Source of the DNA: a bacterium
Lineage (GTDB): Bacteria > Zhuqueibacterota > QNDG01 > JAFGCO01
DNA: 64,000 nucleotides
Direction: 5' to 3'
Assembly (NCBI GenBank): GCA_016932575.1
Contig: JAFGCO010000044.1
Span: forward strand, 1-64,000
Positions within the stretch are counted from its first letter, which is position 1; each line of letters opens with the position of its first letter. The position numbers and the translations under genes are program-made. The notes below the pieces were generated by a model that saw nothing but the letters and a program-made list of their open reading frames with translations, was not told the DNA's origin and did not search any database. This document shows positions 3,785 to 64,000 of the stretch, piece after piece.

Positions 3785-6700
3785 GTGGAAAAAAGCAAAT
3801 GCTCCAGATCTTGCATTTTGTTTTTGATGTCAATATTGCTGCTGTATGGTGTCTCCGTATATGCTGGTAATACGGGAAAAATTGCCGGTGATATCAGGGA
3901 TGTAACCCAGAATCAGGCACTTGCAGGCGCGAATATCATACTCGAAGGCACTGAAATCGGTGCAGCAGCAGATCTTAAAGGACATTATACGCTGCTGAAT
4001 ATTCCACCGGGGACTTACAGTATAAGAATCTCCATGATGGGGTACAAAGAGACCGTCGTGAAGAATGTGCGTGTGTCCGTCGACCTGACCACTGACATCA
4101 GTGTTGAAATGGAACCCACAATCCTCGAATCAAAGGATGTGGTGACGGTCACGGCGGAACGTCCGCTGGTTCAGCGTGATATGACATCATCACAGTCATT
4201 CATCAACAGTGAAGAGATCAAGAATCTCCCTGTACAGAGCCTGAGTGACGTACTTGAACTTCAGGCCGGTGTGGTGCGCGACGGAGATGACTTTCATATT
4301 CGGGGCGGTCGCGCGAGTGAAGTTTCATACTGGGTCGATGGTATTACCACCAATGAAGTATACGGAGGCGGCAACGCGGTTACTGTCGAAAAATCGGCCG
4401 TACAGGAAATGCAGGTCATCAGCGGCACCTTCAATGCTGAATACGGCAATGCCATGTCCGGTATTGTTAATATGATCACCAAAGACGGGGGCAGCCGCTA
4501 TGAGGGTGAAATCACGGCTTATGGCGGAGATTATCTCAGCGGCCGGAAAGTCTATGCAGTGCTGCGCGATGTCATCACCTCAACCAATCCTCAGACCGAT
4601 GAAACCATTGTAGAAGAGGATCTTGAAAATCCGTTGAAAAAATTGAATCCGATTTATAATATCGATGCCAACCTGAGCGGTCCAGTGCCGTTCATGAAAG
4701 ATCGACTTACTTTTCTGGTCAATGGACGGTATTTTTCACAGGAAGGCTATCAATACGGACGTCGATGGTATTATCCACAGGGAATTCAAGGAGACAGCGC
4801 GTTGGTTCCGATGAATCCCTACACCTCATATTCAGGCATGGGTAAATTGACATTCAGGCTCGGAAGCAACATTAAACTGAATTACAGTGTGTTTCTGAAT
4901 CAGTGGAATTCTGATCATTATGTCAATGATGCCTCTCATACGTTCAAGTACATTCCGGACGGTACAATGGGCGAAAAAGGGGATGGACTGACGCATATTT
5001 TTGGTTGGAACCACGTGCTATCTTCAAAGACCTTTTATGAAGCACGTTTTTCAAATGTCAATAACCATTATGAACGGTATGTTTACGAAGATCCTACACA
5101 ATATCCTTCCTACTTCATTCAAGTGCTTGCCGACTCGACGGAGCCCGGATATATCGCAGAGGTCGATCCATTATCGGATGAAGGCAAGACACTGCTTGAG
5201 GAATTGAAAGCGGATCAGAAGCAGTATCAGTACGTGGTGGATCCGCAAAACCGGGAAGGGTACATGCATCCGGATTCACTTCGTGATCCAGCAGCCTACA
5301 GCTTCTGGCGGTCAGGCACCCAGATGGATCATTTTTATCGGACCACTTCCTACTGGATCGGTAAGCTGGATCTGACCAGCCAGGTCACGACAACACACCA
5401 GATTAAAACCGGTTTGGAGCTGCGGCTTCATAAGCTCAGCATGAACAGTTATACACTTCAGCCCAAACTGAAAGAGGGTCTGGATGAACAAATTGTACCT
5501 TTTCAGCCATGGGTTCCTCAGACCTCGAATATCTACCATCATAAATATACACGGAAACCCCTGGAATTTTCAGCTTATATTCAGGACAAAATTGAACTTG
5601 TCGACATGATTGTAAACGTCGGGGTGCGGCTTGATTATTTCGATCCGAACAGCAATGTTCCTGTCGATCCGCGTGATCCGAATATTTACAATCCATTTAA
5701 AGCCGAATACAAATACAAAGACTATATTGCGCCGCCGGATTCGGTTAAGGGCCCCGCAGTCGATGAATACAACGAGCAGTTTACGGAATATTCAGCCGAA
5801 GAACGCCGTTCGTTCATGCAGAAAAAAGCGGATACCAATGTACAGATCAGCCCGAGGCTCGGGATCGCGTATCCGATTACGGACCGCGGTATCATCCATT
5901 TTTCTTACGGTCATTTCTTTCAGATTCCGGAGTTTCAGTGGATTTACAGCAATCCTGATTTCAAGCTCTATACGGGTGGTGGGACCACAATTATTGGCAA
6001 CGCCAATCTGAAACCCCAGCGAACTGTCCAGTATGAAATCGGACTTCAGCAACAGTTGATGGATCAGCTTGGTATGGATATCACATTATTCTATAAAGAT
6101 ATTCGCGACTGGGTCGGCACAAGTCCCCTTGTGGATACGGATAAACCCAGTGTGGCCTATTCGGTGTATGAGAATAAAGACTATGCCAATGTCTATGGTT
6201 TAACCATGAATATCGACAAACGGTTTGCTGATTATTACAGCGCAGGTTTCAGCTATTCGTTTCAGGTCGCGGAAGGCACCTACTCAAATCCGGATGATGC
6301 CTACAATGCTATTCAGAACGAGAACGAACCCCGCCTGACTCTGATTCCACTGAACTGGGATCAGCGTCACACTTTTATGGGCAATGTGACATTGGGTATA
6401 AGTGGATGGATTCTGACTTTGCAGGGAAAATACCAGACAGGCCGGCCGTATACACCGACTTTTACACGCGGGGCTCAGGTAGGCGGATCGAATTATATTG
6501 GTTATCGGGATAACAGTGCGCGCCTGCCGACGATCTCAACCCTCGATATTCTGCTGCACAAACGGTTCACGATCGATTCTTTCCATTTCGGTCTGTTTCT
6601 GACCATTTACAACGCCCTTGATCATAGCGGGGAAACTTATGTCTATACAGATACTGGTACGGCAGAATACACCACCAATACCGATCCTGAGATGATTCCC

Positions 6701-6802
6701 TATGTTTCGCAGCGGATTGGGACTGTCGAAGATCTGGTTCGTCGTCCGGACTGGTATATTGCACCGCGTCAGATTCAGGCCGGTCTGACAATCGAACTGT
6801 AA
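3785..6802 (+). CDS. TonB-dependent receptor with N-terminal carboxypeptidase-regulatory-like domain
   Basis: This 1005-residue outer-membrane protein starts with GTG after a GGGAGGA ribosome-binding site. Residues 1-27 are a signal peptide ending VYA. Residues about 30-115 form a CarboxypepD_reg-like beta-sandwich (GKIAGDIRDVTQNQALAGANI, ISMMGYKETVVKNVRV). Residues about 130-235 are the plug, with HIRGGRASEVSYWVDGI and NAEYGNAMSGIVNMITK. The rest is the beta-barrel, with aromatic-rich strands and RPYTPTF-type periplasmic turns. It would import or bind a large ligand using TonB energy. The preceding LacI regulator suggests a carbohydrate, but no hydrolase or SusD-like gene follows, so the substrate is unknown. 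It is the first gene of a three-gene outer-membrane operon. Confidence 0.92.
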   Translation: MEKSKCSRSCILFLMSILLLYGVSVYAGNTGKIAGDIRDVTQNQALAGANIILEGTEIGAAADLKGHYTLLNIPPGTYSIRISMMGYKETVVKNVRVSVDLTTDISVEMEPTILESKDVVTVTAERPLVQRDMTSSQSFINSEEIKNLPVQSLSDVLELQAGVVRDGDDFHIRGGRASEVSYWVDGITTNEVYGGGNAVTVEKSAVQEMQVISGTFNAEYGNAMSGIVNMITKDGGSRYEGEITAYGGDYLSGRKVYAVLRDVITSTNPQTDETIVEEDLENPLKKLNPIYNIDANLSGPVPFMKDRLTFLVNGRYFSQEGYQYGRRWYYPQGIQGDSALVPMNPYTSYSGMGKLTFRLGSNIKLNYSVFLNQWNSDHYVNDASHTFKYIPDGTMGEKGDGLTHIFGWNHVLSSKTFYEARFSNVNNHYERYVYEDPTQYPSYFIQVLADSTEPGYIAEVDPLSDEGKTLLEELKADQKQYQYVVDPQNREGYMHPDSLRDPAAYSFWRSGTQMDHFYRTTSYWIGKLDLTSQVTTTHQIKTGLELRLHKLSMNSYTLQPKLKEGLDEQIVPFQPWVPQTSNIYHHKYTRKPLEFSAYIQDKIELVDMIVNVGVRLDYFDPNSNVPVDPRDPNIYNPFKAEYKYKDYIAPPDSVKGPAVDEYNEQFTEYSAEERRSFMQKKADTNVQISPRLGIAYPITDRGIIHFSYGHFFQIPEFQWIYSNPDFKLYTGGGTTIIGNANLKPQRTVQYEIGLQQQLMDQLGMDITLFYKDIRDWVGTSPLVDTDKPSVAYSVYENKDYANVYGLTMNIDKRFADYYSAGFSYSFQVAEGTYSNPDDAYNAIQNENEPRLTLIPLNWDQRHTFMGNVTLGISGWILTLQGKYQTGRPYTPTFTRGAQVGGSNYIGYRDNSARLPTISTLDILLHKRFTIDSFHFGLFLTIYNALDHSGETYVYTDTGTAEYTTNTDPEMIPYVSQRIGTVEDLVRRPDWYIAPRQIQAGLTIEL

Positions 6803-6825
6803 AACAAGAAACAGGAGAATCAACA

Positions 6826-9800
6826 ATGAAACAGTTACTGAACCGATTGATCCTGCTTTGTCTGGCGACATTTCTGGCTTCGGTCAATGCGCAGACACCT
6901 ATAGATCAGCTGCATGGAAATGAAAATTACAGTTATAGCGGTCTGCATTCAGGCAATCAGGTTCGCTGTAACTTTTACAATGATGGCATGGTCGGACGCC
7001 GTTATGTCAATCCTGACGATATAGGCGGAGAATGGCCTATAAACAGCGGACATGACTACATGAATCAGATGATCATGTTTGTCGGCGCCGAAGTCAAAGA
7101 CGAAAACGGCGAAATAAAACACATTATCTCTGAAGGCAATGGCTGTACGACGGGAAATTCGAATAATGCGGATTCCGGGGACTCGGGACCAAATGGAGAG
7201 TGGTATTCCATGGCGCCACTGCCTGGTTTTGCCAATGACACACCGCCGGAGGATATGAGTGAGGATCCCCGGGTGGCCATGAGCCAGTGGGCATGGTCCT
7301 GGCCGGAAGCCTGGCCGGATAAATTTGAAGACATTATTGATCCCGGCTGGACTGGCTCATGGAACGGATACTTCGGAAAGAATGTCTGCAATGCTGATCA
7401 GGAAAGCTATTATGTTATGGATGACTACAACAACCGCGAATTCGCGTTCTATCCGGATTCGACCGATCGGCAACGCAGGGGTTTGGGTCTTAGAGGAACA
7501 GTGCGGGGATTTCAGTGGTCTAACGTGCTGGTCGAAGACATTCTGTTTCTGCTTTATGATGTAAAAAATGTCGGCACTACCAATTATCAAAAAATGAACT
7601 TTGGTGTTATGTCCGGTCCGATTATGGGCAATCGGCTGGTCAGCGGCGGTGACGGTGGAGATGATGGCGGAGAGTACAGCCTTGAACAGGAAATAGGATA
7701 TCACCTTGACCAGGACGATATAGGTGCTGGCGGCTGGAGTCCGGTCGGATTTCTTGGATTGGCTTTTTTGGAAAGTCCGGGCAATCCCTATGATGGTATC
7801 GACAATGATGGTGATGCAGTTTTTGGATCGGGCCCTGTGATTCAAGAAGCCATGTTGAAACCCAAGGTGGTTCAGTCAGGACAAGATATTGTTCTGATCG
7901 ATTATAAAACATATACACGGAAAGTCATACCAATGCCGCCGGAAGGTCTTAATATCCGTTTTAAGGACCGGATTATTCAAATTCTACCTGGACAGGAACT
8001 GGTGGAAGTTGAAAACAACCTGTTCGATGACAACCTGAACGGCCTGATCGACGAAAACAACGGCTCCACATTCGGCGAAGGCACATCGGCCATTAAACGG
8101 TATCTGTATCTGGGACTGAAATATGTCGATTATATAACAAAAGACGGTATCGACAATGTCCTGATCGATGAAAAAAGAGATGATGGTATTGACAATGACG
8201 GGAACTGGGATATCTTGTCCGATGATGTGGGTCTGGATGGTGTTCCCAACACCGGGGATCCGGGTGAAAATGACGGCCGGCCGACCTCAGGGCGCAATAC
8301 GGACCTGCCGGGGGAGCCGCACATCGATAAAACCGATATTCATGAATCAGATATGATCGGTCTGACGGCATTCAATATTTATACACCATGGACACTTTAT
8401 CCCTTGTCGGACGATGAAAATCTTTGGTCCGCTATTGAACCGGGCTACCTTAACGCTGTCGGACAATTCGGAGATACCGATATTATTCTGGGATCAGGAT
8501 ATTTTCCCCTCAGGACTGATCAAATCGAACGGTTCTCCATTGGTGTGATTTTCGGGACTGACTTGGACGACATGTTCCGGAACAAGGAATATGCCCAGAA
8601 AACCTACGATGAAAACTATAACTTTTCAAAAGCACCGTATGTTCCAACGGTCACGGTCATTCCCGGAGACAATCGTGTAACCTTGGTCTGGGACGACATT
8701 GCGGAAGCGTCGGATGATCCGATCACAGGAAAAGATTTTGAAGGATACCGGATTTATCGTTCTACGGATCCGGGATTTAAGGATATGACAGCCATTACGG
8801 ATCAGTTCGGATCGATTGCCTACCGGAAACCCATTGCCCAGTTCGACCTTAAAAACAACATTAAAGGTTCGGCGAGCATTGCGGTGCGCGGTATTCACTT
8901 CTGGCTTGGTGAAGATACGGGCCTGCGTCATATGTGGATCGATACCACCGTGCAGAACGGCCAGTTATACTACTATGCCATAACCTCTTACGATCGGGGT
9001 TCTGATTCACTGGGAATCGCACCGACTGAATGCTCAAAATACATATCCATTGCGACTGACGGGACTGTGGACAAAGGTAAAAATGTCGTCCTTGTCAGGC
9101 CGGAGGCTCCCGTAGCCGGTTATATTCCTCCCGGTCTGGACAACCTGAAACTGCTGATACGGCCCGAGGGGCGCGGTACGACAGAGGGAAAAATCGGCTA
9201 TACCATCATCAATCCCGCTGCACTCAGGGATGGACACATCTATCAGGTTTCTTTTGAAGACACGATGTTGACCGAAACGATTGACGGTTCGAACCGGCTG
9301 ACCCTGAAAACACTGAATTATACTTTGAGTGATGTGACATCCGGTCAGGTCCTGATCGACCATGGAACACAAATAGGCTCCGGTGAAGACCAACCGGTTA
9401 CCGATGGTTTCCAGTTGAAATTTTATGCGGATACCATAATGATTATGGATGAAACACTCTCGGGCTGGAACCGGGATGAGATTCATGCATTCACCTGCAA
9501 CCCGTACAGCAGTTCACGGCAGCCTACGCTGCTGGAACCTGCGGACTATTTAATCGAGTTTGGAGAGCACGGCATAGGCACATCGACCGCATATATCCGT
9601 CAAACCAGTGAATTACCAGCAGTACCTGTCAATTTCAGGGTCTTCCGGCTTTTCCCATCTGATAAGGGTGAAGTGAAAGAGGAATCCCTGTTTGCTTTCA
9701 GAGAGAGAGATGAGGAGGACGGCCGTTTCACGGGATTTCTGGAACGTGAATCGACGGTTGATGAAATTATTATTCTCAACGAAGACAGCATTGCCGGATT

Positions 9801-53455: not shown

Positions 53456-55004
53456 GTTTCAATCCACGCGCCCGCGGGGGGCGCGACTTTCAAGAGCAAA
53501 AAACAGATGTTCAAAAGATATGTTTCAATCCACGCGCCCGCGGGGGGCGCGACGCTTATAGCTGATCTATTATGACTATCCGGTATGTTTCAATCCACGC
53601 GCCCGCGGGGGGCGCGACTTGGACAATATACACAATTTGAACAGGATTTAAGTTTCAATCCACGCGCCCGCGGGGGGCGCGACAGTCACCGATTATAATA
53701 TCCTGCAAAACAACGCTGTTTCAATCCACGCGCCCGCGGGGGGCGCGACTACGGTTTAATGTAAAGCGCCCTTTCTTATAAGTTGTTTCAATCCACGCGC
53801 CCGCGGGGGGCGCGACCCCAAATAAACGGCAAGCATATATCCAATAATATGTTTCAATCCACGCGCCCGCGGGGGGCGCGACTGCCCCCGTGCAAATGCA
53901 TATCAATTTCATAATTATGTTTCAATCCACGCGCCCGCGGGGGGCGCGACGCCCGTTTGTCTATCTCAAACGCTGTTCTTACCGTTTCAATCCACGCGCC
54001 CGCGGGGGGCGCGACGTAAAAGAATATGAAATCCCTTTGCACCAGAAAAGTTTCAATCCACGCGCCCGCGGGGGGCGCGACCATGAGAAACGCTTTCTAC
54101 TAATAATTTTAAATAGTTTCAATCCACGCGCCCGCGGGGGGCGCGACTTTGAATAATCTGGTTTAATATGATTTTCATACTGTTTCAATCCACGCGCCCG
54201 CGGGGGGCGCGACCGTAGTCAAACCCCTCCCGTTCGCAAGCTATCAAAGTTTCAATCCACGCGCCCGCGGGGGGCGCGACGTGCATCTTGATATAGATAC
54301 CCGACCGATAAAAGTTTCAATCCACGCGCCCGCGGGGGGCGCGACTGATAGGTGTGTTGTAACCGATGGTACTAATACAGTTTCAATCCACGCGCCCGCG
54401 GGGGGCGCGACGTCACATTCTACACCTAAAGATTTATAATAAGTCGTTTCAATCCACGCGCCCGCGGGGGGCGCGACCTGTCATTGTTATGATCCGGTCC
54501 GCCCAGATAAGTTTCAATCCACGCGCCCGCGGGGGGCGCGACTCCGATTCCGTCCTGCTCAATAACGTGGAACTTAGTTTCAATCCACGCGCCCGCGGGG
54601 GGCGCGACACATAACGCGCCGTGCATAACCGGACAAGGCAAGTTTCAATCCACGCGCCCGCGGGGGGCGCGACTCATTAAAACTAATTACCATATTTTTA
54701 GGAGAACGTTTCAATCCACGCGCCCGCGGGGGGCGCGACGTTACCGCATGCCATGAAACGTCTTCAATATGTCTGTTTCAATCCACGCGCCCGCGGGGGG
54801 CGCGACACGTGCTTTTGAAAGCATGGTTGAAAACAGAGATGTTTCAATCCACGCGCCCGCGGGGGGCGCGACTTTAATCACGCCTCTTTCTTTCTTCACT
54901 TTTTCTGTTTCAATCCACGCGCCCGCGGGGGGCGCGACTCATCTATCTTTATATTTTTATCTTTCTATTTAAGTTTCAATCCACGCGCCCGCGGGGGGCG
55001 CGAC
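53456..55004 (-). CRISPR. Type I-C CRISPR array, 24 repeats and 23 spacers
   Basis: A 32-base repeat occurs 24 times with starts 65-68 bases apart, giving 23 spacers of 33-36 bases. On the plus strand it begins GTTTCAATCCACGCGCC and ends GGGGCGCGAC. Read on the minus strand it begins GTCGCGCC, has an internal GC-rich hairpin and ends GTGGATTGAAAC, the type I-C repeat form. By eye all copies are identical, including the leader-distal one at 53456. The cas operon and leader lie at higher coordinates on the minus strand, so the newest spacer should be the one before 54973. Cas5c would cut the transcript in the hairpin. Confidence 0.98.
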
Positions 55005-55318
55005 AGGGGCTGTTTTCAGCCCATAAATTTCATTGACTTATCACCTCCATATCGGGAACTTGTCTTATATTCAATGAATTAATCATTATTATTTTTTAAT
55101 ATAAACTATAAATCATTGTTTTTTCAATACCGCTAACTTTCGGTATAATATTATGATGCTTTCGGTCAGCGATAACAATATATATTAACTGAACATATCA
55201 GAAGGTAACCTTTTTACCGGTGTTTTTTAATGAATTTTTCATACTGATTATATTTTATTTTAAAAATAGATACTCTTAAAAGGTTACCTTCTGAACAATT
55301 GTCCTTAAAAATTAAATA
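55005..55318 (-). promoter_or_regulatory. CRISPR leader
   Basis: This AT-rich 314-base region lies between cas2 and the first repeat. On the minus strand, TTGAAA (55127-55122) and TTATAT (55104-55099) have 17-base spacing and could start the array transcript about 90 bases before the first repeat. A GGGCTG/CAGCCC hairpin with a four-base loop (55007-55022) abuts the first repeat, a possible integration or protein-binding site. Its cas2-proximal half holds an inverted pair of the locus-specific palindrome arms. Confidence 0.65.
55200..55292. repeat. REP-like inverted pair in the leader
   Basis: AGAAGGTAACCTTTTT (55200-55215) and AAAAGGTTACCTTCT (55278-55292) face each other across a 62-base AT-rich interior. 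These are the same arms found in the other palindromes of this cas locus, but here spread apart like a small MITE. Confidence 0.85.
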
Positions 55319-55609
55319 TCAAACAATCAACAAACCTTCAGGATCATAACCGGCTTTTACACCATGATGTTCAATCCGACGTTTCCAGTTCGAACCTAGA
55401 AAATAAAAACGAAGGCTGTCTTTTTCGGGTTCATATAATTCCAGAAGCCTCGCTTTTAGTTTTTCCCATTGATCCGGCTCAAGATTGCACTCGAATACCG
55501 AATTTTGCACCCGTTGTCCCTTTCCCACACACGTACGTGCGATTTTTGAAAGACGCTTTTGTCCGGATGGGTGAAGGGTTTCAACATCATAGCAAACCAA
55601 CACCATCAT
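55319..55609 (-). CDS. cas2: CRISPR-associated endoribonuclease/integration subunit Cas2, type I-C
   Basis: This 96-residue protein starts MMVLVCYDVET with the ferredoxin-like fold and metal Asp, followed by ARTCVGKGQRVQNSVFECNLEPDQW and the C-terminal RFYFLGSNW. AGGAGA eight bases upstream supports the start at 55609; the frame is open to 55702 but those codons run across a palindromic repeat. Cas2 dimers bridge Cas1 dimers during spacer integration. It is the last gene before the leader. An 83-base gap with a REP palindrome separates it from cas1. Confidence 0.96.
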   Translation of the reverse strand: MMVLVCYDVETLHPSGQKRLSKIARTCVGKGQRVQNSVFECNLEPDQWEKLKARLLELYEPEKDSLRFYFLGSNWKRRIEHHGVKAGYDPEGLLIV

Positions 55610-55640
55610 AATGATCTCTCCTGTTAGAAGGTGACCACTT

Positions 55641-55673
55641 AGAAGGTAACCTTTTTCAAAAAGGTTACCTTCT
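55641..55673. repeat. Perfect REP-like palindrome between cas1 and cas2
   Basis: AGAAGGTAACCTTTTT, one base, then its exact reverse complement: 16-base arms with a single C at the centre. A degenerate extra arm (AGAAGGTGACC) starts at 55626. As RNA it would form a long hairpin between the two coding regions. Confidence 0.93.
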
Positions 55674-55692
55674 AAAAAACCGTACAAATTCC

Positions 55693-56727
55693 TCATCTCC
55701 ATAAAACCGCCGGATAATATTCCAGATCTCCGCGTATATGTCTTGCCAGCAGCCTTGCCTGCGTTTGAAAAAATAAACCGATCTCCATCTTTTCTTCTAA
55801 AAATGGATGCAACATGGTTTCTTTTTTCCGGTTTTGATATGCCACAATCAATTCTTTACGGCAATCATCATCCATTTGTACTTCACCCGTTCCATGAATT
55901 TTGAATTGTTTGGACTGAACCTGCTTCCGGTTAATTAATCCCAAAACCAGACGGTCCGCCAGCGGGGCTCTTAGCTCTTCCATCAAATCCAGGGCCAGGC
56001 CGGGTCTTCCGGGCCGGTCTGCATGCAAAAATCCCACATACGGATCAAGACCCACTGTTTCCAGGGCAGATCTCATGTCAAACACCAGAATTGTATATAA
56101 ATAGGAAAGCATTGCGTTCACCCGGTCCTTTGGCGGGCGCCTTGAACGGCCCTTAAACTGAAACGATTCTTTCTGCTGCACGATCATATGATCAAATACC
56201 TGAAAATAGACATTAGCCGCTTCACCTTCAATTCCGCGTAATTGATCAAGATTCATGCAATTTTGTGTGTCCGACAAGAGTCTTGCCAGGTTATCGATTT
56301 TTATTTTTATCGTATCTGTATGAGCATAATCCGGCTGATTCCTGAGAAAACGGAGCAAACTGGTCCTGCTGTTGTTAATTTTTCCCGCGACCACGCATCT
56401 TGCGATTCCGAGTGATTTCTCAGCATCATCCGCCCAGCGATGCTGTTCTCTTCTTAACAGCACATTGCCTTTAACCGGCCCTTCCATTCTGCCAAGAAAA
56501 CGACCGGTTTCTGTAAGCCAGGCAATGCTTACCCCGCTTTCAGCGCAGAAGGCCATAAGCGGTGCCGTCACAACAATATCGAATCCGAAACATACAATCT
56601 GGCCGATGGTATGTATAGGAAGCTGCATGGTTTTTTGCCCATCCTGTTTCACCACCACAGTGCTGCCCTCTTTATGCAGCCAGGTGTTTTGCTGGGTTAC
56701 ATAAAGCGTGTTCTGCATATGTTTCAT
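55693..56727 (-). CDS. cas1: CRISPR integrase Cas1, type I-C
   Basis: This 344-residue protein has an N-terminal beta-domain and a helical catalytic domain, with Glu in LRGIEGEAANVYF, His in YVGFLHADRPGRPGLALDLME and Asp in the same block, the three metal ligands. The length fits I-C Cas1. It inserts protospacers at the leader end together with Cas2, with Cas4 trimming PAM ends. The start overlaps the end of cas4 by four bases, so the two are coupled. Confidence 0.97.
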   Translation of the reverse strand: MKHMQNTLYVTQQNTWLHKEGSTVVVKQDGQKTMQLPIHTIGQIVCFGFDIVVTAPLMAFCAESGVSIAWLTETGRFLGRMEGPVKGNVLLRREQHRWADDAEKSLGIARCVVAGKINNSRTSLLRFLRNQPDYAHTDTIKIKIDNLARLLSDTQNCMNLDQLRGIEGEAANVYFQVFDHMIVQQKESFQFKGRSRRPPKDRVNAMLSYLYTILVFDMRSALETVGLDPYVGFLHADRPGRPGLALDLMEELRAPLADRLVLGLINRKQVQSKQFKIHGTGEVQMDDDCRKELIVAYQNRKKETMLHPFLEEKMEIGLFFQTQARLLARHIRGDLEYYPAVLWR

Positions 56728-57419
56728 AACGGCTCCTGTGGTTGAAACAGCGATTGACGATATTTTACGGATTTAACGGACATCCGTTTGGGCATGCAGA
56801 TATCTTTCAGAGAGCATGCCCGGCAGCGCTTGTCGTTGATAGGTGGAGGCGTTGTTCTGTTTTGGAACAGAGCGTGGAGATTTTTGATTGCATTCCTTGT
56901 TAGATCCTTAAGTTCCTGATTAATTAACACATCTTCACGCCGCCGGATACGCCGATAAAATAAAGATGCCTGTTTGATTTCGACACCTAACATTTCTTCA
57001 ATGCACAGAACCTGAGCGCAGAGCTGCACCCGGTCGCAGTCATTTTCCTTTGGCTGTCCGTGTTTAAATTCAACCGGGTATACGCGCCAGGTCCCTTTTA
57101 AATGAAATGAAGGCAAATTCGATTGACCCTTTGGATTAATTTCTTCCAGTTCCAGCACATCGATGCGGCCGTGAATTTTCAGTTTTTCCGACTGAATATA
57201 CAGCCCCGAAATCTGCCGTTTGCCTCTCCTGAATTCTCTGTATCCGCTGTCCGCCCGGTCATGTTCCAGCCTGCCACGGGCAGTCAGCACATTTTCAGAC
57301 CATTCCTGCTCAATATGGATGAGTGTGCACTGCCGCGGGCAAAATATAAAATGCTGCAGGGCAGAGACAGGTAATGAATCATTTTCTTTGTCATTCATAG
57401 CGAGATCTTTGTTTGTCAT
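56724..57419 (-). CDS. cas4: CRISPR-associated exonuclease Cas4
   Basis: In this 231-residue protein the first cluster Cys lies in FIFCPRQCTLIHIEQEW and the last three in CRACSLKDICMPKR, forming the 4Fe-4S site. The RecB-type nuclease residues lie in HGRIDVLELEE (Asp) and YPVEFKHGQPKENDCDRVQLCAQ (Glu, Lys, Gln). It processes prespacers with a PAM. The start could be ATG 57419 or ATG 57398; neither has a strong site. Upstream, a REP palindrome and the RAYT gene separate it from cas7, so cas4-cas1-cas2 may depend on read-through or their own promoter. Confidence 0.95.
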   Translation of the reverse strand: MTNKDLAMNDKENDSLPVSALQHFIFCPRQCTLIHIEQEWSENVLTARGRLEHDRADSGYREFRRGKRQISGLYIQSEKLKIHGRIDVLELEEINPKGQSNLPSFHLKGTWRVYPVEFKHGQPKENDCDRVQLCAQVLCIEEMLGVEIKQASLFYRRIRRREDVLINQELKDLTRNAIKNLHALFQNRTTPPPINDKRCRACSLKDICMPKRMSVKSVKYRQSLFQPQEPL

Positions 57420-57433
57420 TTCTTATTTTTATT

Positions 57434-57466
57434 ACAAGGTAACCTTTTTGAAAAAGGTTACCTTGT
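57434..57466. repeat. Perfect REP-like palindrome between RAYT and cas4
   Basis: ACAAGGTAACCTTTTT, one G, then its exact reverse complement. It is the same core as the other palindromes but with C instead of G at position 2 and a matching change in the other arm, a compensatory change that keeps the stem intact. Confidence 0.93.
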
Positions 57467-57505
57467 GAAAGTGATCATGCGAAATCGACTCTGCAAATAT
57501 GTTAT

Positions 57506-58060
57506 CTATTCCAATTTTACTTTATCCAGTTCCTTGTCATCTTCATCCAAATGATCCATGACAAATTCTTTGTAAGCCTGCTTATCAGGAAATTGACTGA
57601 TAATAATCTCTGTTGCAGGTAAAGATCCATGACGGAGTCCGGCATATTCATGATAACTGGAATAGGGCCATTCTTCCGGTACATTTACCAACCCGGCTTT
57701 CACAGGATTCAGATGAATGTATCTCGATAATCGAAGCAGCTGGTTGTTATTTTCGATTCTTATTTTTTTATAGGTATCCTGAAAAAGATGACCATTCCGC
57801 TGAAATCGTTTGTTGATGGCTTTTGCATAGGATGTCTGCAAGCTCAGCATTGTCTTTTTAAGATGGTTGTCTATTGTTTCTTTCATCAATAAATGAAAAT
57901 GATTGGGCATCAGGCAATATGCAATAACAAGCTGTTTTCCCTTTGATGAGTATTTTCGAAGGCGATTTAGAAAAAAACGGTAATTATCCTTATTATAATA
58001 AATAGGCTGCTTTTCATTCCCCCGATTGATGACATGGTAGTATTCTTCTGCATACGTCAT
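57506..58060 (-). CDS. REP-associated tyrosine transposase (RAYT, Y1 HUH type)
   Basis: This 184-residue Y1 transposase/TnpA_REP domain starts YYHVINRGNEKQPIYYNKDNYRFFL. The HUH motif is CLMPNHFHLLM (His at about 54 and 56), the likely nucleophile Tyr is at about 78 in SYAKAINKRF, and the family block GHLFQDTYKKI and RYIHLNPVKAGLV follows. RAYTs nick and mobilise short palindromic REP sequences as single strands. This gene is flanked on both sides by palindromes with GAAGGTAACC arms, its presumed substrates, and lies exactly between cas7 and cas4. AAGGAA precedes the ATG. All key residues look intact, so it may be active. Confidence 0.93.
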   Translation of the reverse strand: MTYAEEYYHVINRGNEKQPIYYNKDNYRFFLNRLRKYSSKGKQLVIAYCLMPNHFHLLMKETIDNHLKKTMLSLQTSYAKAINKRFQRNGHLFQDTYKKIRIENNNQLLRLSRYIHLNPVKAGLVNVPEEWPYSSYHEYAGLRHGSLPATEIIISQFPDKQAYKEFVMDHLDEDDKELDKVKLE

Positions 58061-58119
58061 TTGAGATTCCTTGAGACAGTTAATGAATTAGCTTTACAAA
58101 CACTTTCAATCAGCCAATC

Positions 58120-58152
58120 AGAAGGTAACCTTTTTAGAAAAGGTTACCTTCT
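58120..58152. repeat. REP-like palindrome between cas7 and RAYT
   Basis: AGAAGGTAACCTTTTT (58120-58135), two bases, then AAAAGGTTACCTTCT to 58152. It touches the cas7 stop codon at 58154-58156. In the cas7 transcript it would form a strong hairpin followed by AU-rich sequence. Confidence 0.93.
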
Positions 58153-58153
58153 A

Positions 58154-59186
58154 TTAAACATTTACCAATGTTTTTATCTCATTGACTGGCTTGCCATCTA
58201 ATGTGATCAAATAATCCTGAAATGACCTGGCTGGTTTATCCCTGTTTTCCTTTTTTCTTATGCATTCAACAGTAGCAAATAATTCCTGTGCCTGTTTATT
58301 GCCTAATTCTGATTTGTGTTTGAATATTATTAACCTTCTTGTTGCCATTTCACCCCTAGCCGCAGATCTGTCATGATCAAACATATTTAAAAGGGCTTCC
58401 CAGAACAGTTCAATATCTTCTTCCGAAAATCCGGTTTTTTTTGCAAGGGGGGCTGAGATGAAGCCGTGTGTACGGTAGAGACCATAAGGAACAATTGCTT
58501 TGCGTGCTCCTAATCCTTTATCATCTGGCTTATCGACTGAGACTGCCGCTGTCCGAAACATGGCTATATCAAGTCCCAAAATCGTTTCAACACTTCTAGA
58601 AAAGCACAATTGAACCGGACCCCTGACTTGGCCACAAGTTTTATCTCCAGTTGACATAACTGAGCCAAAAGTTCTAACATCATAAAAATTTTTACACATC
58701 CACTTTTTCGCAATTCTATCCTTGCTGTCGATAAATAGTTCTTTCAGTTTGGCAAGAGATGCATCAGAAATATCTTTTAGTTTTCCAACTTCTTTCTTTA
58801 TTTTTTCAATATCAACATTCAGGCATAAGTAAACACCTTCGTTTTCAAAGCCTACACCTTCAGGGTAATTCTTATAATTACTTAACTCTTCGCGTAAATC
58901 AGAGGGTAAATAAACATATAATCTCTCATTATCTAAAGCTAAATGTGCCCGTTTATGATGTTCTGATAAAAAAGCGCCCTCACGAACATGAATTTCATAA
59001 GGTGCTTCGTTCTGCTTAACCATATCAATGTAATTTCTCACTTTTCTTTTCAAACACACATCGGTCACAATACCGTGCCCGGTTTCAGGATCAATTCGTG
59101 GCAAATTGCCTGCATCCGGATCACCGTTGGGATTACCATTTTTCACATCAAAAAAAAGGACAAATTCATATCGATTATTGATTGCT

Positions 59187-59194
<8 letters not shown>
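58154..59194 (-). CDS. cas7: Cascade backbone protein Cas7, type I-C (Csd2)
   Basis: This 346-residue protein starts [35 protein letters not shown], the hallmark of Csd2/Cas7. Further family parts are RTFGSVMSTGDKTCGQVRGPVQLCFSRSV and the C-terminal MFDHDRSAARGEMATRRL. It coats the crRNA spacer in Cascade. GGAAGGAG supports the start at 59194; an open frame to 59266 lies inside cas8c and is not used. It overlaps the end of cas8c/cas11c by 8 bases. A REP palindrome touches its 3' end. Confidence 0.97.
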
Positions 59195-63714
<4,520 letters not shown>

Positions 63715-63984: not shown

Positions 63985-64000
63985 AGAAGGTAACCTTTTT
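63985..64000. repeat. REP-like arm at the window edge
   Basis: AGAAGGTAACCTTTTT occupies the last 16 bases. It is the first arm of the same palindrome family; the second arm would lie beyond the window. It sits upstream of the cas promoter, so the palindromes flank the whole cas locus. Confidence 0.8.

Follow-up and report, generated by a model that had tools for sequence, protein, structure and literature searches.

The 64,000-nt stretch of contig JAFGCO010000044.1 analysed here (the window) carries a complete type I-C CRISPR (clustered regularly interspaced short palindromic repeats) locus. Between cas7 and cas4 lies an additional gene, encoding a REP-associated tyrosine transposase (RAYT, also called TnpA-REP; REP, repetitive extragenic palindrome). 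Because six spaced inverted pairs of the REP half-element exist at other places in the genome, we conclude that this is an ordinary single-copy RAYT with a small population of REPINs, roughly a dozen elements. REPINs are inverted pairs of REPs with a spacer (Bertels and Rainey, PMC3116915). The RAYT and its REPINs were probably seeded into permissive gaps of the operon, as a recurrent and self-maintained passenger. The RAYT gene and the associated palindromes are as follows.

57506 to 58060, minus strand: RAYT (TnpA-REP) gene, 184 aa, identified by a Y1_Tnp match and alignment with PDB entry 4er8
57434 to 57466, no strand: 33-nt palindrome (16-1-16), a compact REP doublet that separates RAYT from cas4, whose start lies 14 nt further on
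58120 to 58152, no strand: 33-nt palindrome (15-3-15), a compact REP doublet 1 nt past the cas7 stop codon, upstream of RAYT
55639 to 55675, no strand: 37-nt palindrome (18-1-18), a compact REP doublet between cas1 and cas2
55200 to 55292, no strand: REPIN-like full-length element in the gap from cas2 to the CRISPR leader; its inverted 16-nt halves are 61 nt apart
63985 to 64017: 33-nt palindrome ~270 nt upstream of cas3; the left half (63985 to 64000) is in the window and the rest lies beyond it on the contig

The Pfam profile Y1_Tnp matches the RAYT protein with an E value of 4e-13. In an alignment with the E. coli TnpA-REP structure 4er8, His54-x-His56 coincides with the HUH motif of the chain and Tyr114 with its Tyr115; Y115F is the catalytic mutant that has been published for the E. 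coli enzyme (PMC8266576). The catalytic residues of the RAYT, HFH at positions 54–56 and Tyr114, are intact. Both analyses agree with a first-pass annotation, made from the sequence alone, which described a complete RAYT with intact HUH and Tyr. That annotation also placed the gene exactly between cas7 and cas4, and the coordinates bear this out. Thus, cas7 ends at 58154, cas4 starts at 57419, the RAYT gene and two palindromes fit exactly in the gap, and all genes are unbroken. One GGTAACC palindrome had been reported on each side of the RAYT; both were found, but three further copies in the operon had been missed.

In total, five elements of the RAYT palindrome family lie within about 9 kb of the cas locus. 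Each 33-nt palindrome is built from two 16-mers in inverted orientation, which are AGAAGGTAACCTTTTT or close to it. The motif GGTAACC occurs 13 times in the window compared with 3.2 expected (0 of 100 shuffles). Outside the RAYT palindrome family, the window contains only one perfect inverted repeat (arms of at least 11 nt, loop of at most 12 nt).

The palindrome and its half-element were sought in all 72 contigs of the genome (4.41 Mb). Beyond this locus, the compact palindrome, with up to three mismatches allowed, turned up at just three sites, which are diverged. Confinement of the palindrome to the cas locus was nevertheless rejected; mainly the compact form is restricted in this way, and the search with AGAAGGTAACCTTTTT exposed a dispersed population. 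In addition to singletons, it includes inverted pairs with spacers of about 60–75 nt, on contigs 22, 29, 42, 57, 61 and 71. There are seven spaced doublets in the genome, one in the cas operon and six elsewhere, as expected of dispersed REPINs. The first-pass annotation had held that REP units elsewhere in the genome would weaken any cas-specific role, and this is what the dispersed REPINs do. The spaced-doublet pattern occurs once across 81 other genomes of the phylum.

In published systems there is usually one tnpA-REP per REP type, with REPs flanking the gene (PMC6006769). The same one-to-one pairing holds here. The RAYT is present in single copy, and its nearest paralogue in the genome is 38% identical and has a different palindrome. 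Multiple near-identical transposase genes, as would mark an IS200/IS605 element, were not found in the genome. The palindromes of two other RAYTs in this genome were also few, and partly clustered near their own RAYT. A 'double foot' REP could result from a central deletion of an inverted dimer (PMC6006769). Our compact palindromes look like collapsed REPINs of this kind, and we infer that a central deletion produced them.

We propose the following course of events. The RAYT protein would cut and rejoin its own REP hairpins in single-stranded DNA, as known TnpA-REP biochemistry suggests. REPINs would thereby be seeded into intergenic gaps, most densely near the RAYT gene itself, and central deletions would collapse some of them to 33-nt palindromes. 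Few other junctions of the operon offer room, most being overlaps or very short gaps, and for this reason the boundary between cas7 and cas4 would be hit repeatedly. Incidentally, the hairpins may protect or stabilise parts of the polycistronic mRNA, and so perhaps affect its stability. The unit would persist through selection on the RAYT or its REPINs, not through a need of the CRISPR system.

The arrangement of the locus, read along the minus strand, is cas3, cas5, cas8c, cas7, RAYT, cas4, cas1, cas2, leader and array. The components other than the RAYT are listed below.

61528 to 63714, minus strand: cas3 (profile search)
60881 to 61513, minus strand: cas5 (PF09704)
59187 to 60884, minus strand: cas8c, Csd1 (PF09709)
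58154 to 59266, minus strand: cas7, type I-C (PF05107)
56724 to 57419, minus strand: cas4 (PF01930)
55693 to 56727, minus strand: cas1 (PF01867)
55319 to 55612, minus strand: cas2 (PF09827)
53458 to 55004, minus strand: CRISPR array with a type I-C repeat, leader side facing cas2 (sequence read directly)

Other type I-C operons allow the cas7 to cas4 gap to be compared. The nearest in the phylum (L117 and L118) have no RAYT, and their gaps are 41–92 nt. Of 16 other I-C operons, 13 have a gap of −8 to 92 nt. The three long gaps differ in content: 591 nt with a decayed RAYT and REPs in G340, 856 nt with a BRO-like or antirepressor-like gene in G269 (L240, contig 72, about 6550–7414), and 300 nt with no clear gene in G208. 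Hence, the boundary accepts unrelated passengers. Conserved presence in related I-C operons, as expected of a Cas accessory gene, was not found; the RAYT is absent from L117, L118 and most others. G340 was also the only one of 40 Cas1 loci from other phyla to contain a Y1 transposase gene; this sample was picked by best Cas1 score, which favours type I-C. The decayed RAYT of G340 lies between cas7 and cas4 and is accompanied by three copies of a different REP, GTAGGGAACGGTC.

Within the phylum, 82 genomes were surveyed. Y1 genes were found in 5 of 56 Cas1 loci. There are seven such genes, all co-directional with the operon and mostly beside cas4.

Window genome: RAYT between cas7 and cas4
G000, contig 52: Y1 gene between cas4 and cas1
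G002, contig 112: RAYT between cas6 and cas8b, and Y1 gene between cas3 and cas4
G004, contig 33: truncated Y1 gene before cas4, and RAYT between cas4 and cas1
G027, contig 56: Y1 gene between cas4 and cas1

In G003, a RAYT of the G002 type follows cas6 at a contig end. With the window left out, the density of Y1 genes (229 in 383.5 Mb) gives an expectation of 0.34 for the cas loci, which span 0.57 Mb; four loci were seen (P about 4e-4, in a test that was prompted by the window itself and used approximate operon spans). If all 808 candidate Y1 genes are counted, which is the upper bound, only a weak enrichment remains (P 0.03). The first-pass annotation had proposed that absence of the RAYT from relatives' cas operons would indicate a single chance insertion. 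Such absence is seen for I-C operons but not for cas operons generally. A single chance insertion is thus not the whole story, since several cas operons of the phylum, and one in another phylum, contain Y1 or RAYT genes.

A phylogenetic tree divides the cas-embedded Y1 genes among several lineages. In it, the window RAYT groups as sister with the G002 and G003 RAYTs (support 99/78), which have a related palindrome. The G002 sister sits elsewhere, between cas6 and cas8b of a type I-B operon. Therefore, the histories of the cas genes and the RAYT differ, and the RAYT was not carried along with the cas genes. In G003 a REP has altered the end of cas6, which reads on through the REP. In G002 (L107/L055, contig 112) the 3' end of cas6, about 100 bp, is duplicated after the right palindrome of the RAYT. 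Hence, insertion was not always clean.

Elsewhere in the phylum, the surroundings of 20 other RAYTs were scanned, and 15 of these genes have their own palindrome on both sides, with a sequence that differs between RAYTs. Their neighbours are mostly ordinary chromosomal genes, for example gyrase A, tricorn protease, a permease and RecD. The idea that RAYTs generally favour defence genes was rejected, as few annotated neighbours are defence-like. RAYTs also decay in place. In two species of one genus (L195 and L059; G028 and G029) a RAYT occupies the same site between permease and tricorn genes, where the G029 copy is intact and the G028 copy is broken. Separately, in G014 eleven GGTAACC palindromes are dispersed over several contigs, and a close RAYT homologue was not found in that genome.

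Four observations weigh against the proposed reading as a RAYT-REPIN system in a permissive gap. Among the spacers of the doublets, two copies are near-identical and a few further pairs resemble each other above chance; most are only marginally similar. The GT[AG]G foot (the GTAG guide) that defines GTAG-class REPs is absent from the palindrome flanks, read directly. Y1 genes are commoner in cas loci of the phylum than their density predicts, and a purely neutral landing-site reading must explain the bias towards cas4. Finally, the cas-embedded RAYT of G002 and G003 is strongly conserved, with a ratio of non-synonymous to synonymous substitution (dN/dS) of 0.037, synonymous sites being near saturation, compared with 0.135 for the adjacent cas6. 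Judged from its sequence, this RAYT is functional. It is known that RAYTs persist irrespective of the genes beside them, and so strong conservation does not show a CRISPR role. The suggestion of a passenger tolerated in the gap, made in the first-pass annotation, is upheld by the RAYT and REP anatomy usual in the phylum, the dispersed REPINs and the nearest I-C operons, which lack a RAYT. No direct support was obtained for its other suggestion, domestication for expression control or for nicking near Cas1.

The operon might instead use the hairpins and not the transposase. Palindromes at the ends of cas7, RAYT, cas1 and cas2 would then act as mRNA stabilisers or translation modulators, and set the levels of interference relative to adaptation. 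REPs between malE and malF of E. coli act in this way. Strong RNA hairpins are predicted at four transcript junctions (−21 to −31 kcal/mol, z −4 to −6), including the one 14 nt upstream of cas4 and the one 1 nt past the cas7 stop codon. An intrinsic terminator at the palindromes was rejected, as none has a U tract and a terminator scan finds none there, and this too would suit such a role. However, cas operons do not as a rule contain such palindromes, which are missing from nearly all of those that have no Y1 gene, so such regulation is not conserved. Similar palindromes also adjoin unrelated genes. We regard this explanation as unlikely.

Recruitment of the RAYT by the adaptation module is less likely still. 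Here, the RAYT would nick, process or present hairpin single-stranded DNA near Cas1-Cas2-Cas4, and would have been captured repeatedly in the phylum. The recurrence and enrichment described above, the common orientation, the proximity to cas4 and the purifying selection on the G002/G003 RAYT would all fit. Yet the Y1 genes belong to several unrelated lineages, one in the phylum is truncated after HUH and one in another phylum is broken. Furthermore, 51 of the 56 Cas1 loci have no Y1 gene, the closest I-C operons among them, RAYTs beside ordinary genes are conserved too, and the generous Y1 count weakens the enrichment. The data speak neither for nor against a role of the RAYT in spacer acquisition; a CRISPR role of the protein is possible but has weak support. 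The RAYT and REPs could also form a transposon that moves cas modules, with the border palindromes as its ends. Palindromes are indeed present at both outer ends of the locus and in three internal gaps, but the genome showed no second site at which these palindromes enclose a cas module, and we consider this highly improbable.

The unit that we interpret as a passenger resembles the RAYT-REPIN systems, or REPtrons, of Bertels and Rainey (2011, PMC3116915) in its single intact Y1 gene, cognate flanking palindromes and dispersed hairpin-forming inverted REP doublets. It differs in its location inside a cas operon, its roughly dozen elements, its lack of a GTAG guide and the concentration of compact forms at the RAYT locus. 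TnpA-REP subclasses 2.4 and 2.6 of the HuH Y1 superfamily share the NHFH and Y-I-x-x-N-P motifs and long palindromes that resemble collapsed inverted dimers (PMC6006769). REPs are able to insert inside tnpA-REP genes (PMC6006769), and palindromes do lie inside some related RAYT genes (L108, L244). The palindromes here have no GT[AG]G foot, and the likeness to these subclasses is one of features, not a formal assignment. The Y1 HUH domain and catalytic residues are shared with IS200/IS605, from which the present gene differs in being single copy, with no TnpB and no sign of a mobile unit bounded by left and right ends. Compared with other type I-C systems, the complete cas3-5-8c-7-4-1-2 set and array are joined by an extra RAYT and five REP elements in gaps.

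These results place a RAYT-REPIN system in a candidate phylum, and show that CRISPR operons have acquired such units on more than one occasion, where interference genes meet adaptation genes. No report of RAYT units in CRISPR operons was found in open full-text papers, a coverage outside which most subscription papers fall. Should the bias towards cas4 have a cause beyond gap size, it would point to a domesticated single-strand transposase linked to CRISPR adaptation.

Two further features were noted in cas loci of the phylum. In L108 (G004, contig 33) the interval from cas3 to cas4 contains a SWIM-domain gene and an ERCC4-like nuclease (6582–7779). In L138 (G068, contig 3) fourteen tandem repeats of 112 nt, all of which include a 31-nt palindrome, lie directly upstream of cas1 (8069–9633), with CRISPR-like arrays farther out on both sides.
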